DNA of 64,000 nucleotides from positions 62,001 to 126,000 of IMG/VR virus record IMGVR_UViG_3300036770_008715. One strand, given 5' to 3'. The DNA comes from a virus. A model generated the notes under the pieces. It was not told where the DNA came from. It made no database searches and was given only the letters and a program-made list of their open reading frames with translations. Numbering within the stretch: position 1 is the stretch's first letter; each line of letters starts with the position of its first letter. Positions 1 through 32,288 of this stretch are shown one piece after another. Both the position numbers and the translations under genes were made by a program.

Positions 1-3000
1 ATGCATTACCAGATCCTGTCTGATTGATTCGCAGAGCATCAGTTGCGCTATCAACTTGTATAGTTAAATCTGTATATATTTTTGTCTTAGCGATATCATT
101 AGAGTTTTGGTATGTGGCTAGTGTTTCAGTTCCATTAATATAAAACCGATGCCCCAAAGACCCCGCAGTTATCGGTGTTGTATTGGTGTCACATTTATAT
201 TTCGTAAATTTCGCATTATTGTTTGCTGAAATTGAAATATATTCTGGCCCAGCCGCTCCTGTATTTTCTAGTATTGAATATTGTGTGCTATTTCTTTTTA
301 ATATTAGTGATCCGCCAACATCGTCAGCAACTTGCGTTATTGATACATTTCCTTTAATATCTACTGTGTCCGCCCAATTTGAAGCGTCTGTAGTATCAGT
401 TTCTCCATATCCTACTCTAAATGTATTAGCAACATATAAGTTACCATCAGTCGTAAGCGCCATCGCACCTTGCGCACTAGTGTGGCTAGAATCTCCCCAC
501 CAAAAACCTCTATCTGAATTATTACTAAATCTAAATGTCATTGCCCAGTTATTCAGAGGGCCGAAGGTTATAGCACTAACCATTCCTATGCCAAAAGACG
601 CTTCCGTTCCATACAATGTAAATTTCGTATAACTTGAACTCAACGTTGATGCAAACTGTTCAGAATATACATCCCTCCATAATCTGGTAGAAGAACCAAG
701 ATCATATGTTAAGTTTGCTGATGGGATTATACTTGCTGCAGCTGCACCAACGTTATTGTCGTTCCATACTTTAGCATTATTAGAAAAAATATCTCCGTCT
801 CTAAAAACGTAAGTGTCCCAACTAACTAAGCCACCAGCTGTGACTGGTCCATCTTGTACGAAAAGTTGAAATCCTGTTCCACTTCCACCATTTCTGAAAG
901 CAAATGCACCATCTTGGGTATTTTTAGCTTCCCATCTTGTGTCGACACCATCATAGTATGCATTAAATCCAACATATCCCCCAACCGCAAAATCAGCTGT
1001 GGTTGTTGCAGTCCCACCCACTATCAAAAATTGATCTATATCATACCCATCTAACAAATCAGCATTTAGGTTGTTAACCTTTGTTGTCGAAGAAACAGCA
1101 AATGGTGTAGTGTTTTGGAACAAAACAGTTTTGTTTGATTGGAAAAATGTATTTGAATTTAATGTTGTAGTTGGAGAAGTGATATTTACATTTCCACCAA
1201 CATTCAATCCCCCAGCAACACCCACACCACCAGCTACTTTCAGAGCACCTGTTGTTGTGCTTGTGGAATTGGTATTACCAACAATATTAACATTTTCAAA
1301 ATAATTGATGCTATTTCCAACTGAAGCGTTATATTGATCAGTTCCAGTTGACCCAACAGTGGCGCCATTTTCATACGTTATTGTATGGGTTCCATTAACT
1401 GCATAACATTCAATTACAAGATGATATTCTCTAAATTGAGCTTCGTTTTGAATTTGGATTTCATAGTTGCCTGTTGATGTTTTGACTGCACGAATTCTAT
1501 CTCCTGGTCCGCGAACAACACAAAGATCTGGAGTGTTTGTAGTAGTGCTTTCTGTACGAACGCAGGCAACCATATATGTTTCAAAATCTGAATTGACAGA
1601 TCCTTGTATTGCGTGCGACCAATTTGGATCTGTTACAATTATCTTGAACCCAATCGTTGAGTACAAGACGTCTGCTAGAGAAGCAACAATAAATCTCCTC
1701 CATGTGCCTGCAACAGCACTACCAAAATCTATATTCAGTTTAAATGTTGGTTGAGCCTCATAACCATGGTTCACTCCGCCCAAAAACCTACCAATTCCAG
1801 CAGCTTGTAACACATTAGTAGTTTTATCAAACGTTAAATTGGCATTGGCACCAACAGAACCACCATCATTAAAAAGTATTTGAGTGGTTGATCCTGGTGT
1901 TGTTAATGTTCCTGTTGCGCCTTGGACTCCTTGGAATCCTTGAGAACCAACTGCGCCCTGCCTGCCCTGTTGACCTTGTACTCCTTGGAATCCTTGAGGC
2001 CCAGCTGAACCTTGTACTCCTTGAAATCCTTGAGGCCCAGCTGAACCTTGTACTCCTTGAAATCCTTGTGGACCGACAGCGCCTTGTACTCCTTGGAATC
2101 CTTGTGGACCAGCTGAACCTTGTCGACCTTGAAATCCTTGTGGACCAACTGCTCCTTGGACTCCCTGGAATCCTTGAAATCCTTGAGCTCCAACAGCACC
2201 TTGTACTCCTTGGAATCCTTGAGCCCCGACAGCACCTTGTCTGCCTTGTTGACCTTGAACTCCTTGGAAACCTTGAGCTCCAACTGCACCTTGCGGTCCT
2301 TGAGTTCCTGGAGTACCCGCTAGGTTAATCGTCCAAAAAGTGAATGTGCCAGATCCACTAGTTGAAGTTGCATTGATATCTAGAGAGCCAGTACCAGAAT
2401 TATAGCTGGTAACAGTACCCTCAACATAGTTCGTTGATGTGTTAGCTGCTCGAACAGTCTGGGAAGTAGAATATGCTAGTCCAGTTGCAACAGTGAATAC
2501 TTTCGAGCCAGTTCCAATAGTAATAGATGTTGTACTAGTGGTTGCATACTTATCGCCAGCGGTTCCTTGAATTCCCTGATGACCTTGAAATCCCCGTTGG
2601 CCCTGGATACCTTGAAACCCTTGAGCCCCGACAGCACCTTGTCTGCCTTGTTGACCTTGAACTCCTTGAAATCCTTGAGCTCCAACAGCACCTTGTACTC
2701 CTTGGAAACCTTGTGGACCAGCTGATCCTTGTCTGCCTTGTTGACCTTGAACTCCTTGGAACCCTTGTGGACCAATATCACCTTGAACTCCTTGGAATCC
2801 TTGTGGACCAATATCACCTTGAACTCCTTGGAATCCTTGAGGCCCAGCTGAACCTTGTCGACCTTGAAATCCTTGAGCTCCAGCGGCTCCTTGAATACCC
2901 TGGAATCCTTGAGGCCCAGCTGAACCTTGTCGACCTTGAAATCCTTGTGGACCGACAGCGCCTTGGACTCCTTGGAATCCTTGAGGCCCAGCTGAACCTT

Positions 3001-3397
3001 GTACTCCTTGGAATCCTTGCGCACCAACAGCACCTTGGACTCCCTGGAATCCTTGAGCCCCGACAGCACCCTGTCTGCCTTGTTGACCTTGCGCTCCAAC
3101 TGATCCTTGTCTACCTTGAGAACCTTGAACACCAGTTGCAGTAAACTGAATATTGGCATTACCACCAATACCTGCAGTCACTGATACTGTGACTGTTGCG
3201 CTATTGCGGAAGTTAAGGCTATCAGCTGTAACTGTCGATGCGCTATCAACTGAAACTGGAATATCAGCTAGGCCACCGCCTCCACCAGAACCAGCATAAT
3301 TATCTGTGCGCCAAGAGAATCCGTCCCAAGTCCAGACAGTACCGTCTTCGGCTGTAAATGTATTTCCTACTACTGGTGAACTTGGAAAATCTGCCAT
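1..3397 (-). CDS. Collagen-like tail fibre, partial (C-terminus off the left edge)
   Basis: I read an open frame from the ATG at 3397 through base 1 without a stop, at least 1132 residues. The N-terminus (MADFPSSPVVGNTF, then WTWDGFSW) matches the start of the 899-aa fibre at 18025-20724 and the 318-aa protein at 25825-26781, suggesting a common attachment module. Two Gly-X-Y arrays follow (about residues 93-276 and 363-497), split by an 85-residue module that also occurs twice in the 899-aa fibre. The distal part is non-collagenous and has the fibre motif NNLNADLLDGYDIDQF (near base 1050), common in phage tail fibres, plus beta-rich repeats. Likely a trimeric receptor-binding fibre. The receptor and the C-terminal tip are not visible. 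It starts 4 bases after the stop of the 344-aa gene. Confidence 0.85.
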   Translation of the reverse strand, partial: MADFPSSPVVGNTFTAEDGTVWTWDGFSWRTDNYAGSGGGGGLADIPVSVDSASTVTADSLNFRNSATVTVSVTAGIGGNANIQFTATGVQGSQGRQGSVGAQGQQGRQGAVGAQGFQGVQGAVGAQGFQGVQGSAGPQGFQGVQGAVGPQGFQGRQGSAGPQGFQGIQGAAGAQGFQGRQGSAGPQGFQGVQGDIGPQGFQGVQGDIGPQGFQGVQGQQGRQGSAGPQGFQGVQGAVGAQGFQGVQGQQGRQGAVGAQGFQGIQGQRGFQGHQGIQGTAGDKYATTSTTSITIGTGSKVFTVATGLAYSTSQTVRAANTSTNYVEGTVTSYNSGTGSLDINATSTSGSGTFTFWTINLAGTPGTQGPQGAVGAQGFQGVQGQQGRQGAVGAQGFQGVQGAVGAQGFQGFQGVQGAVGPQGFQGRQGSAGPQGFQGVQGAVGPQGFQGVQGSAGPQGFQGVQGSAGPQGFQGVQGQQGRQGAVGSQGFQGVQGATGTLTTPGSTTQILFNDGGSVGANANLTFDKTTNVLQAAGIGRFLGGVNHGYEAQPTFKLNIDFGSAVAGTWRRFIVASLADVLYSTIGFKIIVTDPNWSHAIQGSVNSDFETYMVACVRTESTTTNTPDLCVVRGPGDRIRAVKTSTGNYEIQIQNEAQFREYHLVIECYAVNGTHTITYENGATVGSTGTDQYNASVGNSINYFENVNIVGNTNSTSTTTGALKVAGGVGVAGGLNVGGNVNITSPTTTLNSNTFFQSNKTVLFQNTTPFAVSSTTKVNNLNADLLDGYDIDQFLIVGGTATTTADFAVGGYVGFNAYYDGVDTRWEAKNTQDGAFAFRNGGSGTGFQLFVQDGPVTAGGLVSWDTYVFRDGDIFSNNAKVWNDNNVGAAAASIIPSANLTYDLGSSTRLWRDVYSEQFASTLSSSYTKFTLYGTEASFGIGMVSAITFGPLNNWAMTFRFSNNSDRGFWWGDSSHTSAQGAMALTTDGNLYVANTFRVGYGETDTTDASNWADTVDIKGNVSITQVADDVGGSLILKRNSTQYSILENTGAAGPEYISISANNNAKFTKYKCDTNTTPITAGSLGHRFYINGTETLATYQNSNDIAKTKIYTDLTIQVDSATDALRINQTGSGNA
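2575..3120 (-). repeat. Collagen-like G-X-Y codon repeat (partial fibre, proximal array)
   Basis: Tandem Gly-X-Y codons such as GAQGFQGVQG and GPQGFQGRQG in the 1-3397 fibre. A second array lies at about 1905-2310. Between them is the shared 85-residue linker (about 2311-2565). Boundaries approximate. Confidence 0.8.
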
Positions 3398-4436: not shown

Positions 4437-4805
4437 TTAGATCAGATCTCTAATTTTAATTTTGTATTCTTCAAGAGTAATTGTTGGTTGTTGCTCAAGA
4501 GTTAGTAATCGATTTTCTTGATTGAACAATGCAGTCATCACGGCTCTTTCGATGGAATTAACCCAACTAGTTTTTCTGCTTAATATTTCTTCAGGCGTAA
4601 AATCAACAATTATCCAACCGCGAAGAACCTGAGTTTCTTGGACAGTAACTGTTCCGATAGCATTCTGCAGTTCTGGATTGTATGGTGGTCTTTCTTCATC
4701 AACAACAGGAAGCCATCTCCAGCCTGGTTTTGTTTGAACTTCTGGATCGACATTTGATTGAATTCGATCCACAGTATCTTCTGGACTAATTAGAGCGTAT
4801 AACAT
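4437..4805 (-). CDS. Small protein, possible tail-fibre assembly chaperone
   Basis: 122 residues with no signal peptide or membrane segment. The middle has RPPYNPELQNAIG and GWIIVDFTPEEILSRK. The C-terminal third is a charged helix rich in Gln and Glu (ERAVMTALFNQENRLLTLEQ). Proteins of this size with a Trp/Pro N-terminal part and a helical tail commonly sit next to phage tail-fibre genes and act as fibre-folding helpers. I infer that role from shape and position, not from a firm family match. Its start codon overlaps the stop of the 1133-aa fibre gene (TAATG), so the two are probably translated together, and the 344-aa adhesin follows one base after its stop. Confidence 0.6.
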   Translation of the reverse strand: MLYALISPEDTVDRIQSNVDPEVQTKPGWRWLPVVDEERPPYNPELQNAIGTVTVQETQVLRGWIIVDFTPEEILSRKTSWVNSIERAVMTALFNQENRLLTLEQQPTITLEEYKIKIRDLI

Positions 4806-7800: not shown

Positions 7801-8206
7801 CATTACCTTCTGGCCTAAAGAATACATCAATAGGAGTAGCTTCTTGAGAGGCGACGTTTAATGTTTGTGTTAGAGTTGCTGTTGATATTTCCCATGGTGT
7901 GGATAGTTCCAGCTGATGAACAACATCCACAAGACCAGCAGCTAAGGCACTATTTTGATCGACAACATATACTCTTGTTCCATCAGTATTAGCAAAAACG
8001 CCACTTAATTGACCATTAAGAATACTTAATCCTGCTCTAAACGACGCCTCTTCTATACCATATGTCGTTTTAAGTCTTGCATTGGCACTAGTGTGGAATG
8101 CATCAGTTGCAATGATATTACTGGATCCGATTAGGTTCCCAGTAACGGTTGCACCACTGCTTACATTAAGCGTTCCAGTTACTGTGGTTGAAAGTAAATC
8201 AGCCAT
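4805..8206 (-). CDS. Tail fibre with duplicated beta-propeller and collagen-like stalk
   Basis: 1133 residues. An N-terminal TGTLNVSSGATVTGNL beta-repeat is followed by two related blocks of about 300 residues. Each has propeller blades of the form F.PEGNVMYLLG, FKPDGT and LTPDGKLLYVLG, alternating with STPWNVATAT-like strands. A Gly-Ala-Gln-Gly collagen-like array follows (about residues 860-960). The C-terminal beta-sandwich contains FVQFSIRMPKSWDEGTITYQ, a domain often found at the end of phage fibres. The two propeller blocks look like an internal duplication. Predicted trimeric receptor-binding fibre. A late-promoter-like box lies 28 bases upstream of the ATG, and AAGAG precedes the start. 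Its stop overlaps the start of the 122-aa gene. Confidence 0.85.
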   Translation of the reverse strand: MADLLSTTVTGTLNVSSGATVTGNLIGSSNIIATDAFHTSANARLKTTYGIEEASFRAGLSILNGQLSGVFANTDGTRVYVVDQNSALAAGLVDVVHQLELSTPWEISTATLTQTLNVASQEATPIDVFFRPEGNVMYLLGNSGDDITTYDLSTPWNVATATVSTSNNYSLGTGNWEGFFFKPDGTMFFAVTRTGAANVYQYTMSSPWNVATATTNVLQNVITTSQETTPYSISLTPDGKLLYVLGESADKIIEYTLPTAWNIVGATPTGKRLSATDTSVSVPYEEIIPAGMYFAYPNNRLYIVGSVADDVAEFDLYGGMTVESRKLHVNGAASFANTVKFYREIVVEDDLRVTGVSRFGSTGQTTIQSSGGIISTSITVTGSSSTESLTVSGRANVTGNLIASSNIIVSDALYTSDNTKIETTGGMLEWVHNRDGNIYPLPAGNGTPSGIFANTSGTRLYVSDQTPELVYQIELSEAWNLATATTTTSYNISAQETAVVDLAFRVPEGNVMYVLGDTGNDITWYDLSTPWDVTTATFTTNSNTVSGAIQTTSPSGMYFKPDGTKLWVCSTSIIWQFTMSTPWDLTAASLTYDSISLTPGVDTSLQSLSFSPDGKYMYLVGITNDYIYEFFLPTAWNISGAVFTENRKRIRDVKAVYSSEGSVTGIYVAYPNNRMYLVGTQTDDIIEYLINGVTVDAKQFSVTGKGSFKDDVFVWGDVIVTEGVVSNELQVGSTQQFTVTSSGTVTTSGSVTVSGSTATLSAPFISASQAYRTSGNARIEIGGGVGDTEANIAFGATEATATKNVRIGTDGTAGSKTNIIIGPTDGNANVEFYANTVNISGNLIVAGVDIVPNLGGGGGGAQGAQGVQGAQGFQGAVGAQGFQGIQGAVGAQGSQGIQGAAGAQGFQGIQGAAGAQGFQGIQGAVGAQGSQGIQGAAGAQGFQGIQGAVGAQGFQGIQGSAGGVGLRTIWVPAQTMLPRTTAGAGSTTTESTTNNVMVKTYDFDTTTQEFVQFSIRMPKSWDEGTITYQAAWTAASGSGGVTWSLAGVSLSDDDPIDTAFGTAVNVQDTFIAADDIHVSPISGAVTIAGTPTPEDITFFQVSRVTGDGNDTLGVDARLIGITLFVTTDAQDDT
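5325..5630 (-). repeat. Collagen-like G-X-Y codon repeat
   Basis: Tandem codons for GAQGFQGIQGAVGAQG-type triplets within the 1133-aa fibre. On the plus strand they appear as reiterated CCTTGGAAACCTTGAGC-like units. No sequence interrupts the Gly periodicity. Boundaries approximate. Confidence 0.85.
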
Positions 8207-12817: not shown

Positions 12818-13708
12818 TTATCCTAGGAAAGTAAAGTCGATTGATTTGGTCGACACGTTGTAGGTTATTGACATATTGGAATTGGCAATATTATTGTTTG
12901 CCTGATCTCCACCAAAGTATATTCCATTATTGGTAGATAGTTTAAGGTTTGCATTTGCACTTATTAGGCTGGCTGAGGTGTTGTATGTGAAGTTTGCATT
13001 GCCAGCAAACGTTCCATCGTTATTGTATTGTATGTCAGTATTTGATCCGCCAGGAGTTCCGCTTCCACTAGAAGTGAACTGAATATTCGCATTGCCTTCT
13101 ATTCCAGAAGTGACAGTAACTGTTACTGTTGCGCTATTGAGGAAATTAATTCCATTGGCAGTTACAGTCGAAACGCTGTTGGCCGAAACAGGGAATGTAC
13201 CAGAACCGCCACCGCCAGAACCAGGTGCACCTTGAACACCTTGAGCTCCTTGTACCCCAGTTCCAATTTGGCCTTGAACACCTTGGAATCCTTGAGCACC
13301 TACTGCTCCTTGAATTCCCTGGAACCCTTGCGCTCCAACAGCGCCTTGTACACCCTGAAATCCTTGAGCACCTACTGCTCCTTGAATTCCCTGGAACCCT
13401 TGCGCTCCAACAGCACCTTGGAATCCTTGTGCTCCTTGTACGCCGCTACCACCAACAACAGTTATTGCAATATTAGCATTACCATCTGTCGAATCAGTTA
13501 CTGCGATTGTCGCCGTTGCAGTGTTGACAAAGTTGAGTTGTTTGGCTGAAAGAGTAGATTCACTGTTTTGAGAAACGCGAACCGTGTTGGCCGCACTGGC
13601 TAGGTTTGCATTAAAAATAGAACCCGTAACAGTAAGATTCCCAGAAACCGTGGTATTCTGGGTTACAATTAGATTTCCAGTTACATTACTGTTTAATAGC
13701 TGGGCCAT
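12818..13708 (-). CDS. Short collagen-like fibre
   Basis: 296 residues. The N-terminus has TVSGNLTVTGSIFNANLASA and a FVNTATATIAVTDSTDGNANI strand pair. A Gly-X-Y array follows at about residues 93-170 (GAQGFQGAVGAQGFQGIQG). The C-terminus (PGGSNTDIQYNNDGTFAGNA, then a TFLG end) is nearly the same as the C-terminus of the 899-aa fibre, which ends LDFTFLG. So two genes share a tip module. Likely a short trimeric fibre or a spare tip variant. A late-promoter-like box lies 28 bases upstream of the ATG, and GAGAA precedes the start. Confidence 0.8.
   Translation of the reverse strand: MAQLLNSNVTGNLIVTQNTTVSGNLTVTGSIFNANLASAANTVRVSQNSESTLSAKQLNFVNTATATIAVTDSTDGNANIAITVVGGSGVQGAQGFQGAVGAQGFQGIQGAVGAQGFQGVQGAVGAQGFQGIQGAVGAQGFQGVQGQIGTGVQGAQGVQGAPGSGGGGSGTFPVSANSVSTVTANGINFLNSATVTVTVTSGIEGNANIQFTSSGSGTPGGSNTDIQYNNDGTFAGNANFTYNTSASLISANANLKLSTNNGIYFGGDQANNNIANSNMSITYNVSTKSIDFTFLG
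13205..13440 (-). repeat. Collagen-like G-X-Y codon repeat
   Basis: Tandem Gly-Ala-Gln-Gly-Phe-Gln codons inside the 296-aa fibre, in near-identical DNA units. Boundaries approximate. Confidence 0.8.
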
Positions 13709-15269: not shown

Positions 15270-17177
15270 TTATCTATAGATGACTTCAACGTTATCAATA
15301 TATCTTGTTTCACTAGAAACTGGTGCACCACCTGATTCCCATCCACCAATAGCAAATTGATGGAATGTATAATCATTACTACTGCCTCTTATATTAATAT
15401 TACTAGCAGAACCCATTAATTCGCCATCTCTCCACAATTTTATCCAACCATCAGAATTACCTATAGAATTTAATTGAATTTCAACAGCAATAGTATACCA
15501 TTGTTCTCTATTCATGTTCCAATCGTTGTCAATAACAAAATTTGAACTAGTTCCTAATCCTTGACCAAATACAATAGCTCTTGTTGAATTTCCAGGAGTT
15601 CCGCTGCCCTCAAGTCCAAGTAAAACATCTAATGTGACATTACCATTAGATAATCTACCAACAATTCTACAGGATTTATCTGCCTGGAAATCCCAGTTTG
15701 CGTCTCTATACTCATCCCATTGTAATCTAATATAAGTTTTTCCTGTACTAACATCACCATTAATAGCGCCAGGAAATCTATAATATAATAAAGTCCGTGA
15801 TTCATTTTGAGTCCATGTTGAAGTATATCGATTAGATCCCTGGAATAGGCTAATAGAATGAGTTCCACCGTTTGATGTATCTTGACTATCCCATGGACCA
15901 TTAATAGCATCAGTTATTGTTGAATATGTTTCGAAACTTTCAAAAAAATCTCTAACTACTCTGATATACATTTTAATCTTATTGGAGATTTTCGTCAATC
16001 CGCTGGCTGTGAATGTTCCTGCTTCTCCCCAAACATAATATAGATCAGAGTATATTCTATAGTCAAACGAGTCTGTTGTATCATTAGGAGAATTAATCTC
16101 AATGAATCCTTGCGAATCAACATATAAATCATTTCCAAGATTAGTTTTAGTTGGGAGATAGAATTTATCCCCTACAGAAACTGCTGGTGATAGTCCATAA
16201 TATAAAGAATATGTATTTGCGGCCTGGGATATATCTGTAACTGTGTGTATATTATAGAATGTATTTGTGGTAAGAGTGCCAGAAATACTTGCTGTTGCAA
16301 CGTTAAATGTCACATTACCAAATCCAACATTTGATGCGAATAATTGTTCAGAATATGGAACATCAAATACAATAGCTGATGCATTAGTAGTTGTTGGAGC
16401 TACATTGATGCTTCTTGTTTGATATACTATTTGTACTGCAGTTTGGCCACTTAAATTATAACCAGATAGAATAACTCCAGGCTGCCCAGCATATACAGTT
16501 TCGTCCGTATCAACATCAATTATTGATACATCTGTTGATGCAATAGAAAGTGCTATATGAGTAGTTTGACCTCCTCCTCCGCCAACAGTCCAGGACATTA
16601 TAGAATTAGATGAAGAATTTCCATCTTCAATGGAAGAAGCTATTCTTGCGGAATTTCCACCTGCTCCTGCAGATCCAATAAAGTTGCTAAGTTGTGTTTG
16701 ATTCGCATCAGCAGTATATGTTGTACTGTCGCCACTTCCAGTTCCAATTGCATCAAATACAATAAATCCAGTTCTAGAAGCAATACTTACTGAATTGCTA
16801 GTTGATGTTCTGAAAGTAAAAGGTGGAGTTACTAATTGAGAAACGTTTGCAAAAGATGTTGCAATTATCCCACCTCTGGTAGTTGATGCTGCCCAACGAA
16901 CAATTACAGTATTATTCCCTGTTGGAGGATTAACCATGTAATATGTTCTTAGATATACACCGCCATTAATTACTGTGTTGGCAAATGTCATTGCGGCATT
17001 ATTATAATACACATATGACGGATCTGTTGGCGCACCCGCACTAGTGGTCACTATATTAACAACTAAAAATCTATCTTCCCCCGAACATGTATGATAAAAA
17101 AGTGAATTTGTTCCAGAGTTAACTCCAGCTCCAGACAAAGAAAGAAAGGTATTTGCATTAAGAGTTACTGCAGGCAT
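15270..17177 (-). CDS. Adhesin-like protein with C-terminal lectin-like domain
   Basis: 635 residues. The N-terminal sandwich (FLVVNIVTTSAGAP, TYYMVNPPTGNNTVIVRW, TSFANVSQLVTPP) has the same layout as the modules in the 699-aa and 824-aa proteins. A middle beta part follows. Residues about 430-635 resemble concanavalin-like domains (YIRLQWDEYRDANWDFQADK, WYTIAVEIQLNS, WIKLWRDGELMG, RYIDNVEVIYR). Several Trp residues could form a sugar site. It sits directly upstream of the beta-helix gene, 13 bases away. Role: probable carbohydrate-binding accessory fibre. No specific family named. Confidence 0.65.
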   Translation of the reverse strand: MPAVTLNANTFLSLSGAGVNSGTNSLFYHTCSGEDRFLVVNIVTTSAGAPTDPSYVYYNNAAMTFANTVINGGVYLRTYYMVNPPTGNNTVIVRWAASTTRGGIIATSFANVSQLVTPPFTFRTSTSNSVSIASRTGFIVFDAIGTGSGDSTTYTADANQTQLSNFIGSAGAGGNSARIASSIEDGNSSSNSIMSWTVGGGGGQTTHIALSIASTDVSIIDVDTDETVYAGQPGVILSGYNLSGQTAVQIVYQTRSINVAPTTTNASAIVFDVPYSEQLFASNVGFGNVTFNVATASISGTLTTNTFYNIHTVTDISQAANTYSLYYGLSPAVSVGDKFYLPTKTNLGNDLYVDSQGFIEINSPNDTTDSFDYRIYSDLYYVWGEAGTFTASGLTKISNKIKMYIRVVRDFFESFETYSTITDAINGPWDSQDTSNGGTHSISLFQGSNRYTSTWTQNESRTLLYYRFPGAINGDVSTGKTYIRLQWDEYRDANWDFQADKSCRIVGRLSNGNVTLDVLLGLEGSGTPGNSTRAIVFGQGLGTSSNFVIDNDWNMNREQWYTIAVEIQLNSIGNSDGWIKLWRDGELMGSASNINIRGSSNDYTFHQFAIGGWESGGAPVSSETRYIDNVEVIYR

Positions 17178-18024: not shown

Positions 18025-20724
18025 TTACCCCAAGAACGTAAAGTCTAACGATGTCGCACTCGCGTTATATGATACTCTGAATTTAGAGTTTGAGAATTGG
18101 TTGTTAGACTGTTCGCCACCAAAGTATAGATTACTTGTTCCTGGCAATCTTAGCTGAGAACCGACAGAAACAAGGTTAGCGGCAGTATTGTAGTAGAAAT
18201 TAGAATCGCCACCAAAAGCGCCATTGTTATTGTACTGTATTTGAGTATTTGCTCCGCCAGGAGAGCCGCCTGATGTAAACTGGATATTTGCATTGCCTTC
18301 TATTCCTGCTGTTACTGTAACAGTTACTGTTGCGCTATTAATAAAATTCAGAGCATTGGCTGTTACTGTTGAACCGCTGTTGGCTGAAACAGCAAAGTTT
18401 GCAATTCCAGAAGATCCTGGAGCTCCTTGGACACCTTGATGACCTTGCACTCCAGTTCCAGTTTGCCCTTGAGCGCCCTGAGATCCTTGAATCCCCTGGA
18501 ACCCTTGCGCTCCAACTGCACCTTGAATACCTTGGAAACCTTGGGCACCTATTGCTCCCTGGGCACCTGCTGCGCCTTGAATACCTTGAAAACCTTGTCT
18601 ACCTTGGGCTCCCTGAATACCTTGGAAACCTTGTGCCCCAACAACTCCCTGAGCGCCAGCGGCTCCTTGTATTCCCTGGAAACCTTGGGCACCTACTGCT
18701 CCCTGGGCACCAGTTGCTCCCTGTGGTCCTTGGGTTCCTGGAGTACCTGCTAGGTTAATAGTCCAAAAGGTAAATGTGCCTGAACCACTAGTGCTAGTAA
18801 CATTAATATCAAGAGAACCAGTTCCACCATTATAAGTGGAGACTGTTCCTTCCATATAGTTTGTTGAGTTATTAGCCGCTCGAACAGTTTGAGAAGTAGA
18901 ATATGCTAGACCAGTATCTACTGTAAATACTTTTGAACCAGTACCTATGGTTTGGCTAGTAGTACTGGTGGTGGCATATTTGTCGCCAGCAATACCTTGA
19001 ATACCTTGAGAACCTTGAGCACCAGTTGTTCCTTGAAATCCTTGTGCGCCTTGGATACCTTGAAACCCTTGAGCCCCAACAGCTCCTTGAGCACCAGTTG
19101 TTCCTTGAAATCCTTGTGCACCCTGAATACCTTGAGACCCTTGAGCCCCAACAGTTCCCTGTGCCCCAACAACACCTTGGGCGCCAGCGGATCCTTGTAT
19201 CCCCTGGAAGCCTTGGGCACCTACTGTTCCTTGCGCCCCAGTAACTCCTTGCGCACCAGTGGCACCTTGAATTCCCTGAAATCCTTGTGCGCCAGTAGCT
19301 CCCTGGGCACCAGCATCACCTTGAATACCCTGGAACCCTTGCGAACCCTGAATACCTTGAGAACCTTGAGTTCCTGTTGCTCCCTGAAATCCTTGTGCTC
19401 CCTGAATACCTTGAGAACCTTGAGTTCCTGTTGCTCCCTGAATACCTTGAGAACCTTGAGTTCCTGTTGCTCCCTGGAACCCTTGCGAACCCTGAATACC
19501 TTGAGAACCTTGAGTTCCTGTTGCTCCCTGAAATCCTTGTGCGCCCTGAATACCTTGGAATCCTTGAGCTCCAGCAACTCCCTGGAATCCTTGTGCACCA
19601 ACAGCACCTTGGACTCCTTGGAACCCTTGTGGACCAGCTGATCCTTGAATTCCCTGGAATCCTTGTCTACCCTGAGCGCCTTGTATACCTTGGAAGCCTT
19701 GAGCTCCAATAGCACCTTGAGCGCCAGTTGCTCCCTGTGGTCCCTGGGTTCCAGGAGTTCCAGCAAGGTTAATTGTCCAAAAGGTAAATGTTCCGCTTCC
19801 GCTGGTTGACGTTACGTTAATATCAATAGAACCAGTTCCACTGTTGTATGTGGATACGGAACCTTCCATATAATTTGTTGCGGTATTCGCAGCACGAACA
19901 GTCTGGGAAGTAGAATATGCTAGTCCAGTTGCAACAGTGAATACCTTAGATCCAGTACCAATCGTTTGAGATGTTGTACTAGTGGTTGCATACTTATCGC
20001 CAGCAATACCTTGAATTCCCTGAGAACCTTGGGCTCCAGCAACTCCCTGGAAACCCTGAGAACCTTGAATACCTTGGAAACCTTGGGCTCCAACAACACC
20101 CTGAAACCCTTGTGAACCTTGGATGCCCTGGAATCCTTGTCTACCTTGTGCTCCCTGAATACCTTGGAATCCTTGTCTACCTTGTGCACCCTGAATACCT
20201 TGAGAACCTTGAGTTCCTGTTGCTCCCTGGAACCCTTGCGAACCCTGAATACCTTGGAAACCTTGGGGTCCAGCGGCTCCTTGAATTCCTTGAGAACCCT
20301 GAATACCTTGGAATCCTTGGGGTCCAGCGGCTCCTTGAATTCCCTGAGAACCTTGGGCTCCAGCAACTCCCTGGAAACCCTGAGAACCTTGAATACCTTG
20401 GAAACCTTGGGGTCCAGCAACACCCTGAAATCCTTGTGCGCCTTGAATACCTTGGAAACCTTGTACTCCAGTTGCTCCTTGAAATCCTTGTGCGCCAGGT
20501 AGACCAATTGGACCTTGATCGCCCTGATTACCTTGAACCCCTTGGGCACCTTGTACGCCTTGAGATCCTTGGACGCCCTGTTCGCCCTGAACTCCAGGAG
20601 CTCCTTGTGGGCCAACAGTATTGGTTGCGAAAGATACCCAGGATGTACCATTCCACTTCCAAATCTTTCCGTTGGAAGTGAAAATCTCATTAAGAGCTGG
20701 ATTATCTGGGAAATTGATTGCCAT
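18025..20724 (-). CDS. Large collagen-like tail fibre (three G-X-Y stalks)
   Basis: 899 residues. The N-terminal module (FPDNPALNEIFTSNGKIWKW) matches the start of the partial fibre at 1-3397. Three long Gly-X-Y arrays, mainly GAQGFQGIQG and GPQGFQGIQG, are split by two near-identical 85-residue modules (TGSKVFTVATGLAYSTSQTV, then TFWTINLAGTPGTQG). The C-terminus is a beta module (GGANTQIQYNNNGAFGGDSN, then LDFTFLG) shared with the 296-aa fibre. Likely a long trimeric stalk. Proline occurs mostly before Gln (GPQG), so few prolines are in the Y position. It directly abuts the upstream 1355-aa propeller gene (ATG at 20724, no gap). Confidence 0.88.
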   Translation of the reverse strand: MAINFPDNPALNEIFTSNGKIWKWNGTSWVSFATNTVGPQGAPGVQGEQGVQGSQGVQGAQGVQGNQGDQGPIGLPGAQGFQGATGVQGFQGIQGAQGFQGVAGPQGFQGIQGSQGFQGVAGAQGSQGIQGAAGPQGFQGIQGSQGIQGAAGPQGFQGIQGSQGFQGATGTQGSQGIQGAQGRQGFQGIQGAQGRQGFQGIQGSQGFQGVVGAQGFQGIQGSQGFQGVAGAQGSQGIQGIAGDKYATTSTTSQTIGTGSKVFTVATGLAYSTSQTVRAANTATNYMEGSVSTYNSGTGSIDINVTSTSGSGTFTFWTINLAGTPGTQGPQGATGAQGAIGAQGFQGIQGAQGRQGFQGIQGSAGPQGFQGVQGAVGAQGFQGVAGAQGFQGIQGAQGFQGATGTQGSQGIQGSQGFQGATGTQGSQGIQGATGTQGSQGIQGAQGFQGATGTQGSQGIQGSQGFQGIQGDAGAQGATGAQGFQGIQGATGAQGVTGAQGTVGAQGFQGIQGSAGAQGVVGAQGTVGAQGSQGIQGAQGFQGTTGAQGAVGAQGFQGIQGAQGFQGTTGAQGSQGIQGIAGDKYATTSTTSQTIGTGSKVFTVDTGLAYSTSQTVRAANNSTNYMEGTVSTYNGGTGSLDINVTSTSGSGTFTFWTINLAGTPGTQGPQGATGAQGAVGAQGFQGIQGAAGAQGVVGAQGFQGIQGAQGRQGFQGIQGAAGAQGAIGAQGFQGIQGAVGAQGFQGIQGSQGAQGQTGTGVQGHQGVQGAPGSSGIANFAVSANSGSTVTANALNFINSATVTVTVTAGIEGNANIQFTSGGSPGGANTQIQYNNNGAFGGDSNFYYNTAANLVSVGSQLRLPGTSNLYFGGEQSNNQFSNSKFRVSYNASATSLDFTFLG
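18410..20600 (-). repeat. Collagen-like repeat tract with duplicated linker modules
   Basis: Three blocks of tandem Gly-X-Y codons (roughly 18410-18740, 18996-19750 and 20006-20600) are separated by near-identical linkers at about 18741-18995 and 19751-20005. The same linker recurs at about 2311-2565 in another gene. Such long DNA identity would favour recombination between fibre genes. Confidence 0.85.
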
Positions 20725-23700
20725 TTAGTCTACCGTTCTCGTGGCTTTTAGTGTCTTACCAGCATCAAAGTGAATATAGAATCCATCTTCAGGCGAAGTC
20801 CAAGAAGCATCAGTATATCCGCCAATCAGAATATTATCACCATCAAGAGCGCAGCAGGATCCAATATCACCACCAGTTGTGCCAGTCTGGTATCTAGCGA
20901 AGTTTCCAGTATTTAGGTCGCAAATGGCTACAAGCAAATCAGATCCACCAACCGAAGTTCCAACACCAGAAACAACACCAGCCGTTGATCCTACGATAAC
21001 AACTGTATTGGACTCAGGCAAAAATGTTGATACTCTACCATTAGTATCAAGAATTTCCGAAGAAACAGTACCTGTTTGGTATGCAACGTTGAATGTATTT
21101 GATCTGTAATTATAGATCACAACACCAATATCATCTGCTCCAGCAGATGTAGTTATAATTGGAGTCAAGTTATCTGTTGTCTGGTATACTAGAGCAATCT
21201 GGCCGCCACCAATATCGTGCAAGTTAACTGCTTTATCGTCACCATCGCCGCCGATCTGATTATGCTTAAAGGTATTTGATGTTGTATCAAGAATAGAAAC
21301 TAGAATGTCATAAACACCATATTGCGTTCCGCCAATATTACTGGTTGTTCGACCACAAACTGCAACGTTGCCGTCTTCAAGTTTTGTGATGGCATAATAT
21401 TCTTCGTCTAGATTAGTTCCTGTCTGGTAGAATTCAAATTCTCTGCCTGCAGGCTTGCTTTCGTCGAATCGAATAATTAGACCATCATATACTCCAGAAC
21501 CTCCAGTGTTTTTCTTACCAACATCGCCTGAGGTCTGGCAGATAAAGTAGAATACATTATCTGAATATTGCACTAGGTCATATCCGAAAATATTACCATC
21601 GTCAGCAATAGAGTCGCCGACTGTTCCGACAACATAGAACTTTGTAAATGCTTCGCTATCATACATTGGCAGATAGTCACGATGCTCAGCATGTTCTGGA
21701 TCATTCATATGCTGCTGAGCTTTGTCTAGGTCAAAGACAGCAAGAACAAAGTTCCACAATCCGCTTGATCCATCAAATATGGATTGCTGTATTGTTTCAA
21801 TTGAACCTACTGTGTGAGATGGCGTAGTAATAGCCAGTGTGCTATTTGTTATTGATGGTGCTATACCAACAGGCGATGCAGTTCCAGCAAAACTTTCTTG
21901 TGGATAGGTGTCATACAAGAAGTTAAATGTAATATCCAGATCTAGGTGGCAAACACCAGTACCAAATCCTTTACGCCAGAATCGAGTTAATAGACCGTTC
22001 TCCTGGAAGAATGGATCTTGGGCAAAGTTAGTGCCGCAAACATAGATGTTGTCATTCAGATGATCCATCGTACAACCAAGGAAATTAGTATCATATACAT
22101 CCATCGATGGATTGAAATACTTTAACCAATTTTTCCAGAGCGAAGTTCCCGATTGATCGAATCCAAATATGAATCCTCGGTTCTTCACTTCGCTCATCAT
22201 ATGATGTTCTATTCGAGAAATCTGATTCTCATAACCTACAGCATAGATGTAATTCTCATTATCTACAGTAACTCCAGTAAATTGGGAATCAATATTAACT
22301 GACTGAACCCACTGTTGAGTACCAATAGAATCAAACTTAATAATAGTTGCATTTGGCGTGGTATTGGCGCCGACAGCAATTACGTTTCCGCCAGCATCAA
22401 CAGCAAGACTATTGTAATTAATTGTGCTAGATTCTCTGGCCCATACGAGCGATCCACTGCTGGTTAATTTGAATACTTTATTATTACCAGCTGCATATAC
22501 ATTATTTGACGAATCAACTGTTACTTGTTTTAGCTGGAAATCTGGAACTTTCTTTTGCCAAACTTGAACGCCATTAGTTTCAAGTTTAACAATATAACTA
22601 TTATTAGTTTCTTTGAGGCCAAGGTACAAATATTCGCCAGAGGCTTTGATGCTTTCAATTTGTTGATCGCCGCTCGTATCAATAGTACGTGTCCAGACTG
22701 GCTGGCCATTACTCAAAAATTTAGCATACAATCCAGCTTTACCCGAACCTTCTGTCGTCGATCCGCCAACATAAATTGAATCTGTTGAATCAATTGTAAC
22801 TGCAAATCCTGAATCAATACTAGAATTCTCTAATGTTTTAGTCCAATCGATTTCAAGATTAGCTGTGAACTTAGTCAAAACTAATTTATCGTCTGCCGAA
22901 GAACCGACTGTTACAACAAGACCATTACTGTCTACTGCAACACCGCGATATATTGTATTGGCGTCGTTATAATATGTGGTTCGAACAAAAGGATGAACTC
23001 TTGTTTCTTTTAAATCAATTAACTGGCTCTTGGTGTAGCCAGTGAGATATATTAAGTTTGTATTGGCTCGTAGCTGCATTCCAGTAAAATAGTCTTGACC
23101 TGGACCGCCTGCGCAATAATAATCGCCGCCACCTTGTTCTTCGTCGCCATTATAAATGGTAACCATAAAATCATCGAAACCAAGGTTGCCTTCATTCTCT
23201 TCTATCTTACCGCAGAATACCATTCGACCATCATTCAGAGCAAGAACGTCATAGAAGTATTCACCGCCGCCAACACCAGCAGTTGATTTCTTTTTATAGA
23301 ATTGAGGAGATGCCAAATCATACTGGAAAACTGCATTTCCTGTTGGAATTGGATCTGGCTCTTCTTCATTAATTCTTCGCCAAGTCTGAGATTCTAATTC
23401 ATATTGGACATAGCCAATTGTACCTGCTGGCCTTAGAATAAAAGCATTATTGGCAACATCAAAATCAAAGTGTGGGTATATTTGTCTAGTGAAGTTAATT
23501 TGAAAACCATAAACTCCTTGGCCTTGGTATGTTCCAGTAACGTCTTTATCGCCACTTAATATGGTATAGAATCTTCTTTCCGATGCTCTATATGAAATGC
23601 CATGTACTCTGAGTGGATTACTACCACTTCCATTGGTTACTATTTGACCTTCGTCAATCCACTCAGCGCCATCAAATCTGTATAAACTAACACCATCAGA

Positions 23701-24792
23701 TTCTCCGACAACTGCATATAATTCATTACTAACCACTATTAAATGGCAATCGGGTTTAATTGTAACTCCTGTCTGAATAGTTGATACTACAATTGTACCA
23801 GCAGCAAGAGTATCAGCTGAAGTGATCTCCCAGATTTTGAGATCATATCCGCTGGATGGATTATTATAGATGACTGGAATATAAAGTTTGTCTGCTATTA
23901 ATTCTCCGCAGGAAGCTCTGAATGGATACTCAGCAATGTTAGTGTTGTTGACATAAATTGGATCTGCTAAGTCATAAGTTCCTAGGCTGACTTCGGCAGT
24001 AAATGTTCTTGTCGATAGCACATATGTTCTACTATAGACTTTCCATTGAGTAGAATCTGCTGCAATATAAAACGCATGGTATCTATTGGAAGAACCTTTA
24101 TGCATCCCGCCTATGATATGATTCTGCACTGTATTAGCTGGTAGAATTACATCTAGGTGTGAAGAGTGCGCACCACCAACGCTTGGCTGGTGAATTCGAG
24201 CCAGAACCGATTGATATTCTGTCATACCAGAAGTAGTTTCTGTGTAGATCAAATATCCATAATGCGGATCGGCATCACTAATAAACTTTCCGTCTGTAAA
24301 TGTAATTCTTCCATTTGAAAAATCATTTTCATATGCATCTGGATTATGTTGGTGGTATTGGAAATAACTCCAGTCTTCACCTTCGTTTTGCAGCAATCTG
24401 TCCCAGTAAAATGGCGTATCGTCTTGGGCACTTCTAATAGTTCCAAGATGCGCAAAGAACATTGCGTCTTCTTCGGTAAGGCCAGTCACTTCGTTGATAT
24501 TTGGGCCAATGTGAGAAACTGAAGAGTTGTGATATTCTCTTACCACTCCATCCCAAGTTTCAGTTATAATCTCAAAAGAACCGTTCATTGGCAACGATTC
24601 TAATCCTGGAGTTATTGGCAGCTGCTCATTGAATCGATATGGTATTACTTCGTCGTCGTCTTTATCAGTGTAACTTCCTGGTAATGCTTTAATCCAGTAA
24701 CCAGCACTCATTCCTGGAATAGCAGGATGGCTTAATACTTGGCTGGCCAAATTTACTGATTGGATTACTGTCGAAGTATTAACTGTTGCCAT
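20725..24792 (-). CDS. Very large beta-propeller tail protein
   Basis: 1355 residues. The middle and C-terminal parts repeat units of the SBBP/delta-60 type: DSNGLVVTVGSSADDKLVL, DSTDSIYVGGSTTEG, DSSNNVYAAGNNKVF, DNENYIYAVGYENQ and DDGNIFGYDLVQYSD. These read as blades of one or more beta-propellers. The N-terminal 500 residues are a different beta-rich part with its own repeats. No catalytic motif was seen. Its start overlaps the end of the methyltransferase gene by 14 bases. Possibly a receptor-binding propeller on the outer tail; a similar role is plausible for the 1133-aa fibre. Confidence 0.8.
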   Translation of the reverse strand: MATVNTSTVIQSVNLASQVLSHPAIPGMSAGYWIKALPGSYTDKDDDEVIPYRFNEQLPITPGLESLPMNGSFEIITETWDGVVREYHNSSVSHIGPNINEVTGLTEEDAMFFAHLGTIRSAQDDTPFYWDRLLQNEGEDWSYFQYHQHNPDAYENDFSNGRITFTDGKFISDADPHYGYLIYTETTSGMTEYQSVLARIHQPSVGGAHSSHLDVILPANTVQNHIIGGMHKGSSNRYHAFYIAADSTQWKVYSRTYVLSTRTFTAEVSLGTYDLADPIYVNNTNIAEYPFRASCGELIADKLYIPVIYNNPSSGYDLKIWEITSADTLAAGTIVVSTIQTGVTIKPDCHLIVVSNELYAVVGESDGVSLYRFDGAEWIDEGQIVTNGSGSNPLRVHGISYRASERRFYTILSGDKDVTGTYQGQGVYGFQINFTRQIYPHFDFDVANNAFILRPAGTIGYVQYELESQTWRRINEEEPDPIPTGNAVFQYDLASPQFYKKKSTAGVGGGEYFYDVLALNDGRMVFCGKIEENEGNLGFDDFMVTIYNGDEEQGGGDYYCAGGPGQDYFTGMQLRANTNLIYLTGYTKSQLIDLKETRVHPFVRTTYYNDANTIYRGVAVDSNGLVVTVGSSADDKLVLTKFTANLEIDWTKTLENSSIDSGFAVTIDSTDSIYVGGSTTEGSGKAGLYAKFLSNGQPVWTRTIDTSGDQQIESIKASGEYLYLGLKETNNSYIVKLETNGVQVWQKKVPDFQLKQVTVDSSNNVYAAGNNKVFKLTSSGSLVWARESSTINYNSLAVDAGGNVIAVGANTTPNATIIKFDSIGTQQWVQSVNIDSQFTGVTVDNENYIYAVGYENQISRIEHHMMSEVKNRGFIFGFDQSGTSLWKNWLKYFNPSMDVYDTNFLGCTMDHLNDNIYVCGTNFAQDPFFQENGLLTRFWRKGFGTGVCHLDLDITFNFLYDTYPQESFAGTASPVGIAPSITNSTLAITTPSHTVGSIETIQQSIFDGSSGLWNFVLAVFDLDKAQQHMNDPEHAEHRDYLPMYDSEAFTKFYVVGTVGDSIADDGNIFGYDLVQYSDNVFYFICQTSGDVGKKNTGGSGVYDGLIIRFDESKPAGREFEFYQTGTNLDEEYYAITKLEDGNVAVCGRTTSNIGGTQYGVYDILVSILDTTSNTFKHNQIGGDGDDKAVNLHDIGGGQIALVYQTTDNLTPIITTSAGADDIGVVIYNYRSNTFNVAYQTGTVSSEILDTNGRVSTFLPESNTVVIVGSTAGVVSGVGTSVGGSDLLVAICDLNTGNFARYQTGTTGGDIGSCCALDGDNILIGGYTDASWTSPEDGFYIHFDAGKTLKATRTVD

Positions 24793-29336: not shown

Positions 29337-32288
29337 TTATTGACTTGCCCAACTCACCGTCACAGATCCTCCGCTAGCACCAGTACCAACAGTAATAGCT
29401 AAAAGTGCCCCAACGCTTATAGTCTTATTTATAGTTCTAATTCCATTACCTGGAGCCCCAAAGTCACCAACTCCTCCAGCACCACCAACTGTTGCGCCAG
29501 TTCCATTTGCACCAGCAGTACCAGCAGTGCCAGCAGCACCAGCATTACCAGCTTGACTCGGCCAACTAGTTGGTGCCGCTCCACCTGGGTTTCCTGGTGT
29601 GGCACCAGTACCAGCTGCGCCATTTGTACCAGCAGTACCTGCAGTACCTGCTACTCCAGCTTGACTTGGCCAAGTTGTTGGAGCAGCACCACCTGAGTTT
29701 CCTGGTGTGGCACCAGTACCAGCTGCGCCATTCGTACCAGCAGTACCTGCAGTACCTGCTACTCCAGCTTTACCAGTCCAGTTTGTTGGTGCTGCTCCTC
29801 CTGGATTACCAGAAGTTGCACCAGTACCAGCTGCTCCGTTTGTGCCAGCAGTACCTGCAGTACCAGCAACTCCAGCTTTACCAGTCCAGTTTGTTGGTGC
29901 TGCTCCTCCTGGATTACCAGAAGTTGCTCCAGTACCAGCTGCGCCATTCGTACCAGCAGTACCTGCAGTACCTGCTACTCCAGCTTTACCAGTCCAGTTT
30001 GTTGGTGCTGCGCCCCCAGAAGTTGCTCCAGTACCAGCAGCACCTGTTGTTCCAGCATTTCCTGGACCTCCTGCTCCGCCAGAACCCCCTGGGTTGGCTG
30101 AACCAGGACCAACTGCACCAGTGCCAGCTCCACCAGCAGATCCAACATTTGATCCACCAGTACCAGCAGTTCCAGCTACTCCGCCACTTCCAGAGAAATA
30201 AGATGTTGTGGGTGTAGGAAAACCTGTGACAGATATACCATAACCACCGCCTGCGCCGCCACCACCTCCACCGCCACTACCAACTCCCCCTGAGGTTCCA
30301 ACTCCTCCTGGATTTCCAGCAGTTCCAGCGTTCCCGCCAGGTCCAAAGGCACCGTTGGTTCCTGCTGTTCCTGGGTTACCAGCAGCACCTTTAGTTCCTG
30401 GATTTCCAGCAGCACCAGCAGTTCCAGCATTACCTCCTGGACCAAACGCCCCATTGGTTCCTGCTGTTCCTGGGTTACCAGCAGCACCTTGAGTTCCTGG
30501 ATTTCCAGCAGCACCAGCAGTTCCAGCGTTCCCGCCAGGTCCAAAGGCACCGTTGGTTCCTGCTGTTCCTGGGTTACCAGCAGCACCTTGAGTTCCTGGG
30601 TTTCCTGCTGCACCAGCAGTTCCAGCAGTTCCACCAGGTCCAAATGCTCCATTGGTTCCAGGATTACCAGCGTTTCCTGCGCCACCTTGCGTTCCTGGGT
30701 TTCCTGCTGCACCAGCATTACCTGCTGTACCTCCTGGACCGAAAGCACCACCTTCCCCATTATTTCCTGGATTTCCTGGGTTTCCAGCAGTACCTGGGTT
30801 GCCAGCATTACCAGCATTACCAGCAGCGCCGCCTGCACCGCCAAAAAAAGTTATACTAGTTAATGTTGTTCCTGTAGATTGAACTACTGATGATGGATTT
30901 CCTGGGATACCAGCCGTTCCTGCACCCCCAACACTTCCATCTTTACCGCTCCAAGAAGTAGGAGCTGCTCCTCCTGAGGTAGCGCCAGTACCAGCAGTAC
31001 CAGGGCTACCACTAGCTCCTACGCTACCAGCAGAACCAGCAGATCCAGATTGACTTGGCCAAGTTGTTGGAGCAGCACCACCTGGGTTACCAGAAGTTGC
31101 TCCAGTACCAGCTGCGCCATTTGTACCAGCGGAACCAGCAGTACCTGCTACTCCAGCTTTGCTTGGCCAAGTTGTTGGAGCAGCACCACCTGGGTTACCA
31201 GAAGTTGCTCCAGTACCAGCTGCGCCATTTGTACCAGCAGTACCTGCAGTACCAGCAACTCCAGCTTTACCAGTCCAGTTTGTTGGTGCTGCTCCACCTG
31301 GGTTACCCGAAGTTGCTCCAGTACCAGCAGTTCCATTTGTTCCTGCAGAACCTGCCGATCCTGCTGCACCAGCTTTGCTTGGCCAATTAGTTGGTGCTGC
31401 TCCTCCTGGATTACCAGAAGTTGCTCCAGTACCAGCTGCTCCGTTTGTACCAGCGGAACCAGCAGTACCTGCACCCCCTGGGCTGCCTGCTGTACCAGTA
31501 CCACCGCCTCCTCCTCCGCCGCCTTCACCACCGCCACCGCCAGACCATGGCCCCCCATTACCAACGCTACCACCAGGTCCACCATTTCCACCACGGCCAC
31601 CACCTGGAGTTCCTGCATTTCCTGCTGTGGATCCACCAGCACCGCCTGCACTAGTGTTCGAAGTTAGCCCTGATGCGCCAGCATTACCTGGATTTCCTGA
31701 CGGCGTGGCACCAGCGCCACCAGTGCCTCCGCCACCACCAGATCCTGCTCCTCCTACAAATCCATTACTTCCAGCTGAACCGCCATTCCCACCACTGCCG
31801 CCCGAGCCTCCAGCACCGCCAGCGCCGCCTGCACCGTTAGTTCCTGGGTTACCTGCAGCTCCTTGAGTTCCTGGATTTCCAGCAGCACCAGCAGTTCCAG
31901 CAGTTCCACCAGGTCCAAATGCTCCATTGGTTCCAGGATTACCAGCATTACCTGCAGCTCCTTGGTTTCCAGGGTTACCAGCAGCACCAGCAGCACCAGC
32001 AGTTCCACCAGGTCCAAATGCACCGTTGGTACCAGGATTGCCAGCATTACCTGCAGCTCCTTGAGTTCCAGGATTGCCAGCGTTGCCTGCAGACCCAGCA
32101 TTTCCACCAGGGCCGAAAACGCCATTAGTTCCTGGAGTTCCTGGGTTTCCAGTTCCTCCTCTTCCTCCAGTGCCAGAAATAGTAACTTTTCTAACACCAA
32201 AAGGCACTACCCATCCAGTGCTACTATTAAAAGTTTGAGACCCCGCTTTGACTCGCGTTCGAAGCAGAGTGGAGGAACCTAACGGCAT
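29337..32288 (-). CDS. Giant glycine-rich collagen-like adhesin
   Basis: 983 residues. A short start (TRVKAGSQTFNSSTGWVVPF, then GVRKVTISGTGG) is the usual opening of glycine-rich tail domains. About 880 residues of Gly-X-Y-like blocks follow: GNAGNPGTQGAAGNPGTNG and repeated GTAGTNGAAGTGATSGN, GGAAPTNWTGKAGVAGT and relatives. More than 20 GNPG segments place proline in the Gly-X-Pro position favoured by prolyl hydroxylases. The end (SVGALLAITVGTGASGG, then VTVSWASQ) is a short beta part. Could form polyglycine-II or collagen-like triple helix. It lies near the oxygenase gene. Long antisense frames here are shadows. Confidence 0.8.
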   Translation of the reverse strand: MPLGSSTLLRTRVKAGSQTFNSSTGWVVPFGVRKVTISGTGGRGGTGNPGTPGTNGVFGPGGNAGSAGNAGNPGTQGAAGNAGNPGTNGAFGPGGTAGAAGAAGNPGNQGAAGNAGNPGTNGAFGPGGTAGTAGAAGNPGTQGAAGNPGTNGAGGAGGAGGSGGSGGNGGSAGSNGFVGGAGSGGGGGTGGAGATPSGNPGNAGASGLTSNTSAGGAGGSTAGNAGTPGGGRGGNGGPGGSVGNGGPWSGGGGGEGGGGGGGGTGTAGSPGGAGTAGSAGTNGAAGTGATSGNPGGAAPTNWPSKAGAAGSAGSAGTNGTAGTGATSGNPGGAAPTNWTGKAGVAGTAGTAGTNGAAGTGATSGNPGGAAPTTWPSKAGVAGTAGSAGTNGAAGTGATSGNPGGAAPTTWPSQSGSAGSAGSVGASGSPGTAGTGATSGGAAPTSWSGKDGSVGGAGTAGIPGNPSSVVQSTGTTLTSITFFGGAGGAAGNAGNAGNPGTAGNPGNPGNNGEGGAFGPGGTAGNAGAAGNPGTQGGAGNAGNPGTNGAFGPGGTAGTAGAAGNPGTQGAAGNPGTAGTNGAFGPGGNAGTAGAAGNPGTQGAAGNPGTAGTNGAFGPGGNAGTAGAAGNPGTKGAAGNPGTAGTNGAFGPGGNAGTAGNPGGVGTSGGVGSGGGGGGGAGGGYGISVTGFPTPTTSYFSGSGGVAGTAGTGGSNVGSAGGAGTGAVGPGSANPGGSGGAGGPGNAGTTGAAGTGATSGGAAPTNWTGKAGVAGTAGTAGTNGAAGTGATSGNPGGAAPTNWTGKAGVAGTAGTAGTNGAAGTGATSGNPGGAAPTNWTGKAGVAGTAGTAGTNGAAGTGATPGNSGGAAPTTWPSQAGVAGTAGTAGTNGAAGTGATPGNPGGAAPTSWPSQAGNAGAAGTAGTAGANGTGATVGGAGGVGDFGAPGNGIRTINKTISVGALLAITVGTGASGGSVTVSWASQ
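29430..32160 (-). repeat. Imperfect Gly-rich tandem repeat tract
   Basis: Imperfect units such as GTAGTNGAAGTGATSGNPGG and GNAGNPGTNGAFGPGG recur throughout, in near-identical DNA. The tract lies wholly inside the 983-aa coding region. Boundaries approximate. Confidence 0.75.

Follow-up and report, generated by a model that had tools for sequence, protein, structure and literature searches.

Recombination between conserved motifs in the distal fibre genes of T-even phages, described by Tetart and colleagues in 1998, reportedly swaps adhesins. In Escherichia coli prophages, collagen-like fibres of the EPclB architecture have two Col domains separated by Pf2 (PF03406); they carry several Gly-X-Y arrays of varying length, are called modular by the authors, and are consistent with recombination between prophages (PMC3368898). 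Here we describe a related arrangement in IMG/VR record IMGVR_UViG_3300036770_008715, an uncultured virus of 140,073 bases, of which the stretch from 62,001 to 126,000 was analyzed (64,000 nucleotides, hereafter the window). Two of its collagen-like tail fibre genes, gene A (18025..20724, minus strand, 899 residues) and gene B (2..3397, minus strand, running beyond the window to a total of 1998 residues), share an 84-residue module, which is present twice in gene A (copies A1 and A2) and once in gene B (copy B). As in T-even fibre genes, repeated fibre-gene sequence may serve as the substrate for exchange; unlike the T-even swapping of adhesins between phages, the exchange proposed here would involve one tract common to two genes of the same phage. 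Because modular fibre evolution is already known from EPclB and from T-even motif exchange, the module and its two-clock history (old modules, young arrays) are a further case of it. The order of a Col domain, another domain, and a second Col domain is common to EPclB and to genes A and B, but the separator in EPclB is Pf2 (PMC3368898), whereas the T4-like phage described here, which is uncultured, has a barrel of 84 residues that gives no PF03406 match. The same module is found in proteins of uncultured Caudovirales that BFVD lists as "Collagen triple helix repeat", such as A0A6J5M145 and A0A6J5KM52 (TM 0.96, 46-52% identity over 84-85 columns). These records name the protein rather than the domain, and show nothing about copy number or exchange. 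A literature search of titles and abstract openings found no description of the module, which does not prove its absence.

Sequence search and alignment place A1 at 19750..20001 (gene A residues 242-325), A2 at 18736..18987 (gene A residues 580-663), and B at 2306..2557 (gene B residues 281-364), all on the minus strand. A preliminary description of the window had noted a linker at these three places on one strand, and its coordinates are correct to within 8 bases. Each copy runs over 84 codons from GDKY to TPG (GDKYATTS...TINLAGTPG), and no fourth copy is found in the whole record at E 0.001. The copies were said to lie always between Gly-X-Y arrays, and this holds for A1, A2, and B. On the minus strand, translation and run searches locate the arrays at 20002..20613 before A1, 18988..19749 between A1 and A2 (here also from tandem repeats), 18451..18735 after A2, 2558..3133 before B, and 1904..2305 after B. 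The domain order is array-module-array-module-array in gene A and array-module-array in gene B. The so-called linker is predicted to be a folded domain, a beta barrel that interrupts the collagen-like stalk. We consider it probable that this arrangement results from old duplications in the lineage, purifying selection, and a later partial exchange between A1 and B, with the barrel forming a node in the stalk. Duplication within the lineage would have brought the module to its three places, and the long time since then would have let silent sites approach saturation while purifying selection (dN/dS 0.06-0.08) held the protein. A later exchange of about 50-110 bases would then have passed the first third of the module between A1 and B.

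Over the 91 codons (273 bases) compared pairwise, 85 residues are identical between A1 and A2, 83 between A1 and B, and 83 between A2 and B, a protein identity of 91-93% that is not due to chance. The corresponding counts of identical bases are 217, 218, and 213 (78-80%). The copies had been called near-identical, which is true of the protein and not of the DNA, and the "high DNA identity over 250 bases" comes down to 213-218 of 273 bases, the exception being codons 0-34 of A1 and B. For A1/A2, A1/B, and A2/B, respectively, the proportion of synonymous differences (pS) is 0.58, 0.53, and 0.58, the synonymous divergence (dS) is 1.12, 0.94, and 1.11, and the ratio of nonsynonymous to synonymous divergence (dN/dS) is 0.061, 0.083, and 0.079. 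Where residues agree, the same codon is used at 42 of 75 positions in A1/B (28.1 expected, z 3.4) and at 39 of 75 in A2/B (27.9 expected, z 2.7); in A1/A2 it is used at 35 of 76 (28.7 expected, z 1.6, P 0.07), which is not clearly above independent draws. In the preliminary description, the similarity was attributed to a recent copying event between fibres that took in the module as a whole, a proposal that saturated silent sites in a pairwise DNA alignment would speak against. With pS of 0.53-0.58, the sites are near that state, if not fully there. Protein identities of 91-93% would suit such copying, and a younger example exists in another phage (record G042, pS 0.25). In the window it fails because silent sites are near saturation and DNA identity is only 78-80%: dS values of 0.94-1.12 are not the low synonymous divergence of a recent duplication, and codon sharing between A1 and A2 is not clearly above random. 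We thus give this explanation almost no credence, while copying between genes as such is retained in view of the single clade and the A1/B tract described below. Most likely, purifying selection kept the module protein alike while its silent sites drifted.

The first third of A1 and B departs from this pattern. At codons 0-34, 97 of 105 nucleotides are identical, and at codons 19-34 the two copies agree at 48 of 48 bases, against a pS of 0.77 at codons 35-90. Pairwise comparison and an exact-match search delimit an identical run of 50 bases at 19895..19944 in A1 and 2451..2500 in B (both minus strand). With three pairs tested, this length was matched by 2 of 10,000 codon-order shuffles, and the longest exact runs of A1/A2 and A2/B are not unusual (permutation P 0.66 and 0.65). 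By alignment and MaxChi, the wider A1/B-like part of the mosaic covers codons -1 to 34 (19897..20004 in A1 and 2453..2560 in B, minus strand) and ends in a sharp break at codons 32-35. Of 80 informative sites, 26 precede the break and 54 follow it; A1 equals B at 18 of the former and 7 of the latter. MaxChi gives P 5e-5 for A1=B, 0.16 for A1=A2, and 0.045 for A2=B, the last with a break at the same codon 32; with the 59 silent informative sites alone, none of 20,000 shuffles reaches the A1=B value. Mosaic identity with sharp ends, silent sites included, is the mark of gene conversion, and it is present in this tract.

If there had been old duplications only, without gene conversion, the first-third match between A1 and B would be a leftover or chance. 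This would fit the silent sites elsewhere, which are saturated or nearly so, and the patchiness of the tract, whose eight A1/B differences all fall within codons 11-18; because of this clustering, one clean conversion event is not the sole possible history. The sharp break, significant on silent sites alone, and the complete identity of codons 19-34 beside strongly diverged codons count against it, and we hold duplication without exchange to be unlikely. In our reading, the tract records a partial exchange between the two genes that took place after the duplications, most simply by gene conversion through homologous recombination. Neither direction nor date is assigned to it, because the searches yielded no close relative carrying an orthologue of gene A; the best relative of gp6 reaches 77%, on a 9-kb contig, and the viral contig collection holds no exact match to the 50-mer. 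Among 50 within-record pairs (several of these records share fibres), each tested with 1000 shuffles, three have tracts with P 0.003 or less: A1/B in the window, L050 2218/3811 (41 nucleotides), and L032 828/1410 (25 nucleotides).

For the phylogeny, 126 distinct modules were thinned to 105 rows, and 13 long rows were dropped because long branches drew together in the 105-row tree. From the remaining 92 rows, 42 were kept for the clade test, and in their tree A1, A2, and B form one clade with support 100/97. The N-terminus of gene B also occurs in records G005, G002, and G036 (55, 55, and 51% identity), and G005 and G036 carry the module in the gene that shares it. Forcing B together with the modules of these two records, a grouping named after inspection of the 105-row tree, is rejected in the 42-row tree (approximately unbiased test, p-AU 0.0102; log-likelihood 35.2 lower). 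Because the copies form one clade and a grouping with positional counterparts is rejected, the spread of the module within this lineage, or its homogenisation, would be ancient, and a single partial exchange would have followed. Conceivably, genes A and B each took up the module independently from an outside source, given how widespread it is in viral contigs and that it is present in Bacteroidota genomes. However, identity to the closest module found elsewhere is about 65%, against 90-93% among the copies; these form one clade, and no outside donor was found that resembles any one copy more than the copies resemble one another (identities to the modules of G002, G004, G005, and G036 are 48-65%). 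Such a double acquisition is thus very improbable.

Repeated modules of other phages show both kinds of behavior. In record G042, two modules in different open frames share 74 of 84 residues with a pS of 0.25 and a codon-sharing z of 5.1. Judged on these values, the pair is an independent, younger cross-gene copying event of the kind first imagined for the window. In six fibres of another phage group (L243-L248, four of which are also listed as L069, L045, L052, and L072), silent sites over 15 overlapping quartets are orthologous at 290, crossed at 72, and concerted at 15, and amino-acid sites are orthologous at 32, crossed at 7, and concerted at 30. Copies 2 and 3 of L069 agree at 80 of 84 residues in spite of a pS of 0.73. 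Residue 45 is Ser in both L069 copies, written with different codons, and Cys in both copies of the other five fibres. Conversion of copy 3 by copy 2 in L069, which the protein suggested, was considered and rejected, as silent sites follow the positional orthologue (pS 0.27 versus 0.73).

A shared task, such as binding the same ligand or partner, could keep copies alike as protein and changing in step without any exchange of DNA. The agreement of the L069 copies, their common Ser, and the excess of concerted over crossed amino-acid sites, set against the reverse at silent sites, all speak for it. Parallel protein-level change was tested by parsimony, with the tree of the six fibres kept fixed, and the result is not significant: 3.5 coincidences are counted where 1.8 are expected (P 0.085). 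The same quartet counts can arise from unequal branch lengths and from shared ancestral residues, and plain purifying selection explains the window. As the cause of the likeness between A1, A2, and B, a shared task is therefore rather improbable, and protein-level evolution in step among repeated modules is suggestive, a lead. A wider form of this idea is possible, though we doubt it: modules along the fibres of one virion would be functional repeats evolving in step as protein because each of them contacts a common partner or receptor, with their DNA drifting to saturation, and the short and rare cross-gene conversion tracts would lie at the module as almost the only long DNA that fibre genes still share.

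Several points weigh against the history that we favor, with its old duplications, purifying selection, and partial A1/B exchange. The tract is short as well as patchy, and the absence of a close relative with an orthologous gene A applies here too. The repeated modules of L243-L248 bear no sign of conversion at silent sites, where they follow position and not fibre. In the 105-row tree, long Bacteroidota branches joined among the window copies, which had no clade of their own; the 42-row tree was built without the rows of these branches. Since fibres are modular and mosaic, a shared N-terminus makes an equal module position likely and leaves orthology unproven. One clade with saturated silent sites is also compatible with old duplication alone, with no homogenisation afterwards.

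The Gly-X-Y arrays behave differently from the modules. Exact matches were compared with 100 codon shuffles in five collagen-like fibre genes (A, B, 4805-8206, 12818-13708, and 33070-34800), genes 3401-4435 and 29337-32288 being left out. In the order given, the genes hold 11, 6, 1, 1, and 2 internal matches of at least 40 nucleotides, the longest being 79, 50, 68, 56, and 89 nucleotides, and the longest shuffled values are 41, 32, 32, 32, and 32. The sole exact match of at least 40 nucleotides between genes is the A1/B module tract, and no array match of that length links any two of the five. On the whole, the arrays thus appear to turn over quickly, mostly inside single genes. The arrays of 4805-8206 and 12818-13708 share 39 identical nucleotides, above the longest of 100 shuffles (32), and some exchange of arrays between genes is therefore possible there. 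The "route for fibre shuffling" read into the repeated module finds no backing: recombinant fibres were not observed, most array matches link parts of a single gene, and the silent sites of the repeated copies in L243-L248 go with position. Since protein-identical copies differ in their codons, a scrambling of codons against repeats was considered and rejected. Six of seven repeat-bearing genes far exceed codon shuffles in exact repeats (the seventh, 3401-4435, has about as many as its shuffles), and in 57 within-record module pairs codon sharing has a mean z of +1.04 and a lowest value of -1.89, which also counts against scrambling.

Beyond the window, the module is, on sequence matches, common in collagen-like fibres of uncultured phages. 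A scan of viral contigs with the module found 101 relatives, and 80 loci among them were retained (30 of these records were searched whole); many contigs are near duplicates, so that their counts are not independent. With filters off, HMMER found 117 domains in 81 of 81 sources. The search had been repeated in this way as the default filters lost copies (107 domains, 76 of 81 sources). Among 115 near full-length copies, Gly-X-Y sequence lies upstream in 110 and downstream in 103. The 13 copies failing on a side comprise nine with short array breaks, one without an upstream array, and three on near-identical contigs (L012-L014), where a degenerate copy lies outside any array. Of 80 gp6 loci, 35 were given to the module search, and 10 of these 35 gp6-relative phage records contain the module, some weakly or in part. 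It is also carried by 14 genome contigs, 12 of them Bacteroidota, with Gly-X-Y flanks around most copies. In phage records, the window module as query gave no match at E 1e-5 and a consensus-like query none at E 0.1, and low-complexity filtering in BLAST may hide further matches there. Two other natural modules hit the same 3 of 50,697 records, namely two records of a 735-kb uncultured phage and Aphanizomenon phage CL131, the latter weakly (E 0.05 and 0.1). By profile, gp035 of Aphanizomenon phage CL131 (L264) has two divergent copies followed by collagen-like sequence, and it is the only isolate phage with the module in these searches. In L239, L241, and L242 (records G038, G064, and G057), a shortened relative of the module stands at the extreme N-terminus, ahead of the collagen-like part. 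A Bacteroidia protein, L178, has seven copies of a divergent subfamily (GYQATS...GLAYTAGARVRV) and one ordinary module.

AlphaFold2 models the module, as a monomer, as a single domain of six strands, with a mean predicted local distance difference test score of 90.9 and a predicted template modelling score (pTM) of 0.80. It matches 25 predicted viral proteins at E <= 0.001, of which 15 are named "Collagen triple helix repeat"; among solved structures, Foldseek gives no match at that threshold. In VIA-align, the baseplate chain 8rk3_b of JBD30 has Z 8.0 (79 residues, root-mean-square deviation 2.8), practically level with HerA (7.9) and followed by Upf1 (7.0), V1-ATPase (6.7), and the Chi tail tip 8vjh (6.5). 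The strand arrangement of these beta barrels is loosely similar, at 14% identity for 8rk3_b and 10% for Chi, and Z values so close across unrelated proteins are too alike for a functional conclusion. For copy A1, the best Pfam match has E 0.34 (10 bits versus 27) and NCBIfam gives none at E <= 1. When 32 modules were scanned against Pfam at E <= 1, 20 families were listed and PF03406 was absent. No listed family matches more than two of the 32 copies, and the best single match is bla_class_C (E 0.00058, one copy). PHROG 31840, of unknown function, matches 12 of the 32. Most likely, the module is a globular node, with one copy from each chain placed around the axis of a putative trimeric stalk. 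Such a node would set the register and break up a flexible rod, and it may also contact the surface of the host. In uncultured phages, collagen-like fibres combine folded modules with fast-changing Gly-X-Y arrays. Separating the two clocks indicates which part changes fibre length quickly and which could bridge recombination between fibre genes. Its wide occurrence and confident predicted fold, together with the lack of a Pfam or NCBIfam match for the window copy, make the module worth naming and worth studying structurally.

Genes A and B were identified as fibre genes from their open reading frames, from Pfam Collagen (PF01391; 303.5 bits for gene A, in 11 stretches, and 174.7 bits for the in-window part of gene B, curated cut-off 27.2), and from tail-fibre PHROG families, which match both. 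They lie in a tail and baseplate neighborhood, with a tail tube cap match at 57803-59002 and a baseplate wedge protein at 50366-52432. The latter matches T4-like phages; its best listed match is Methylophilales phage Melnitz (40% over 70% of the protein). Adjoining the fibres, 15270-17177 has a weak Pfam polysaccharide lyase match (PF14099, 31.4 bits, cut-off 29.9) and is a possible depolymerase. A protein of 1355 residues at 20725-24792 has a beta-propeller PHROG match, and a pattern scan of viral contigs found no relative of it. The very Gly-rich protein of 983 residues at 29337-32288 contains repeats of about 30 residues (GTAGTNGAAGTGATSGNPGGAAPTNW), with exact repeats of up to 83 bases. 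At 33070-34800, a collagen-like fibre holds a different folded-looking module (YTFSNATTGDPASG...) flanked by two Gly-X-Y arrays, with an 89-base exact repeat within the arrays. A second shared module of about 40 residues (SANS.STVTA..LNF.NSATVTV; 48-74% identity) stands beside arrays in gene B (residues 45-87 and, outside the window, 1624-1663), in gene A (residues 776-818), and in 12818-13708 (residues 38-82 and 171-212). The C-terminal 123 residues of gene A match the end of 12818-13708 at 64%.

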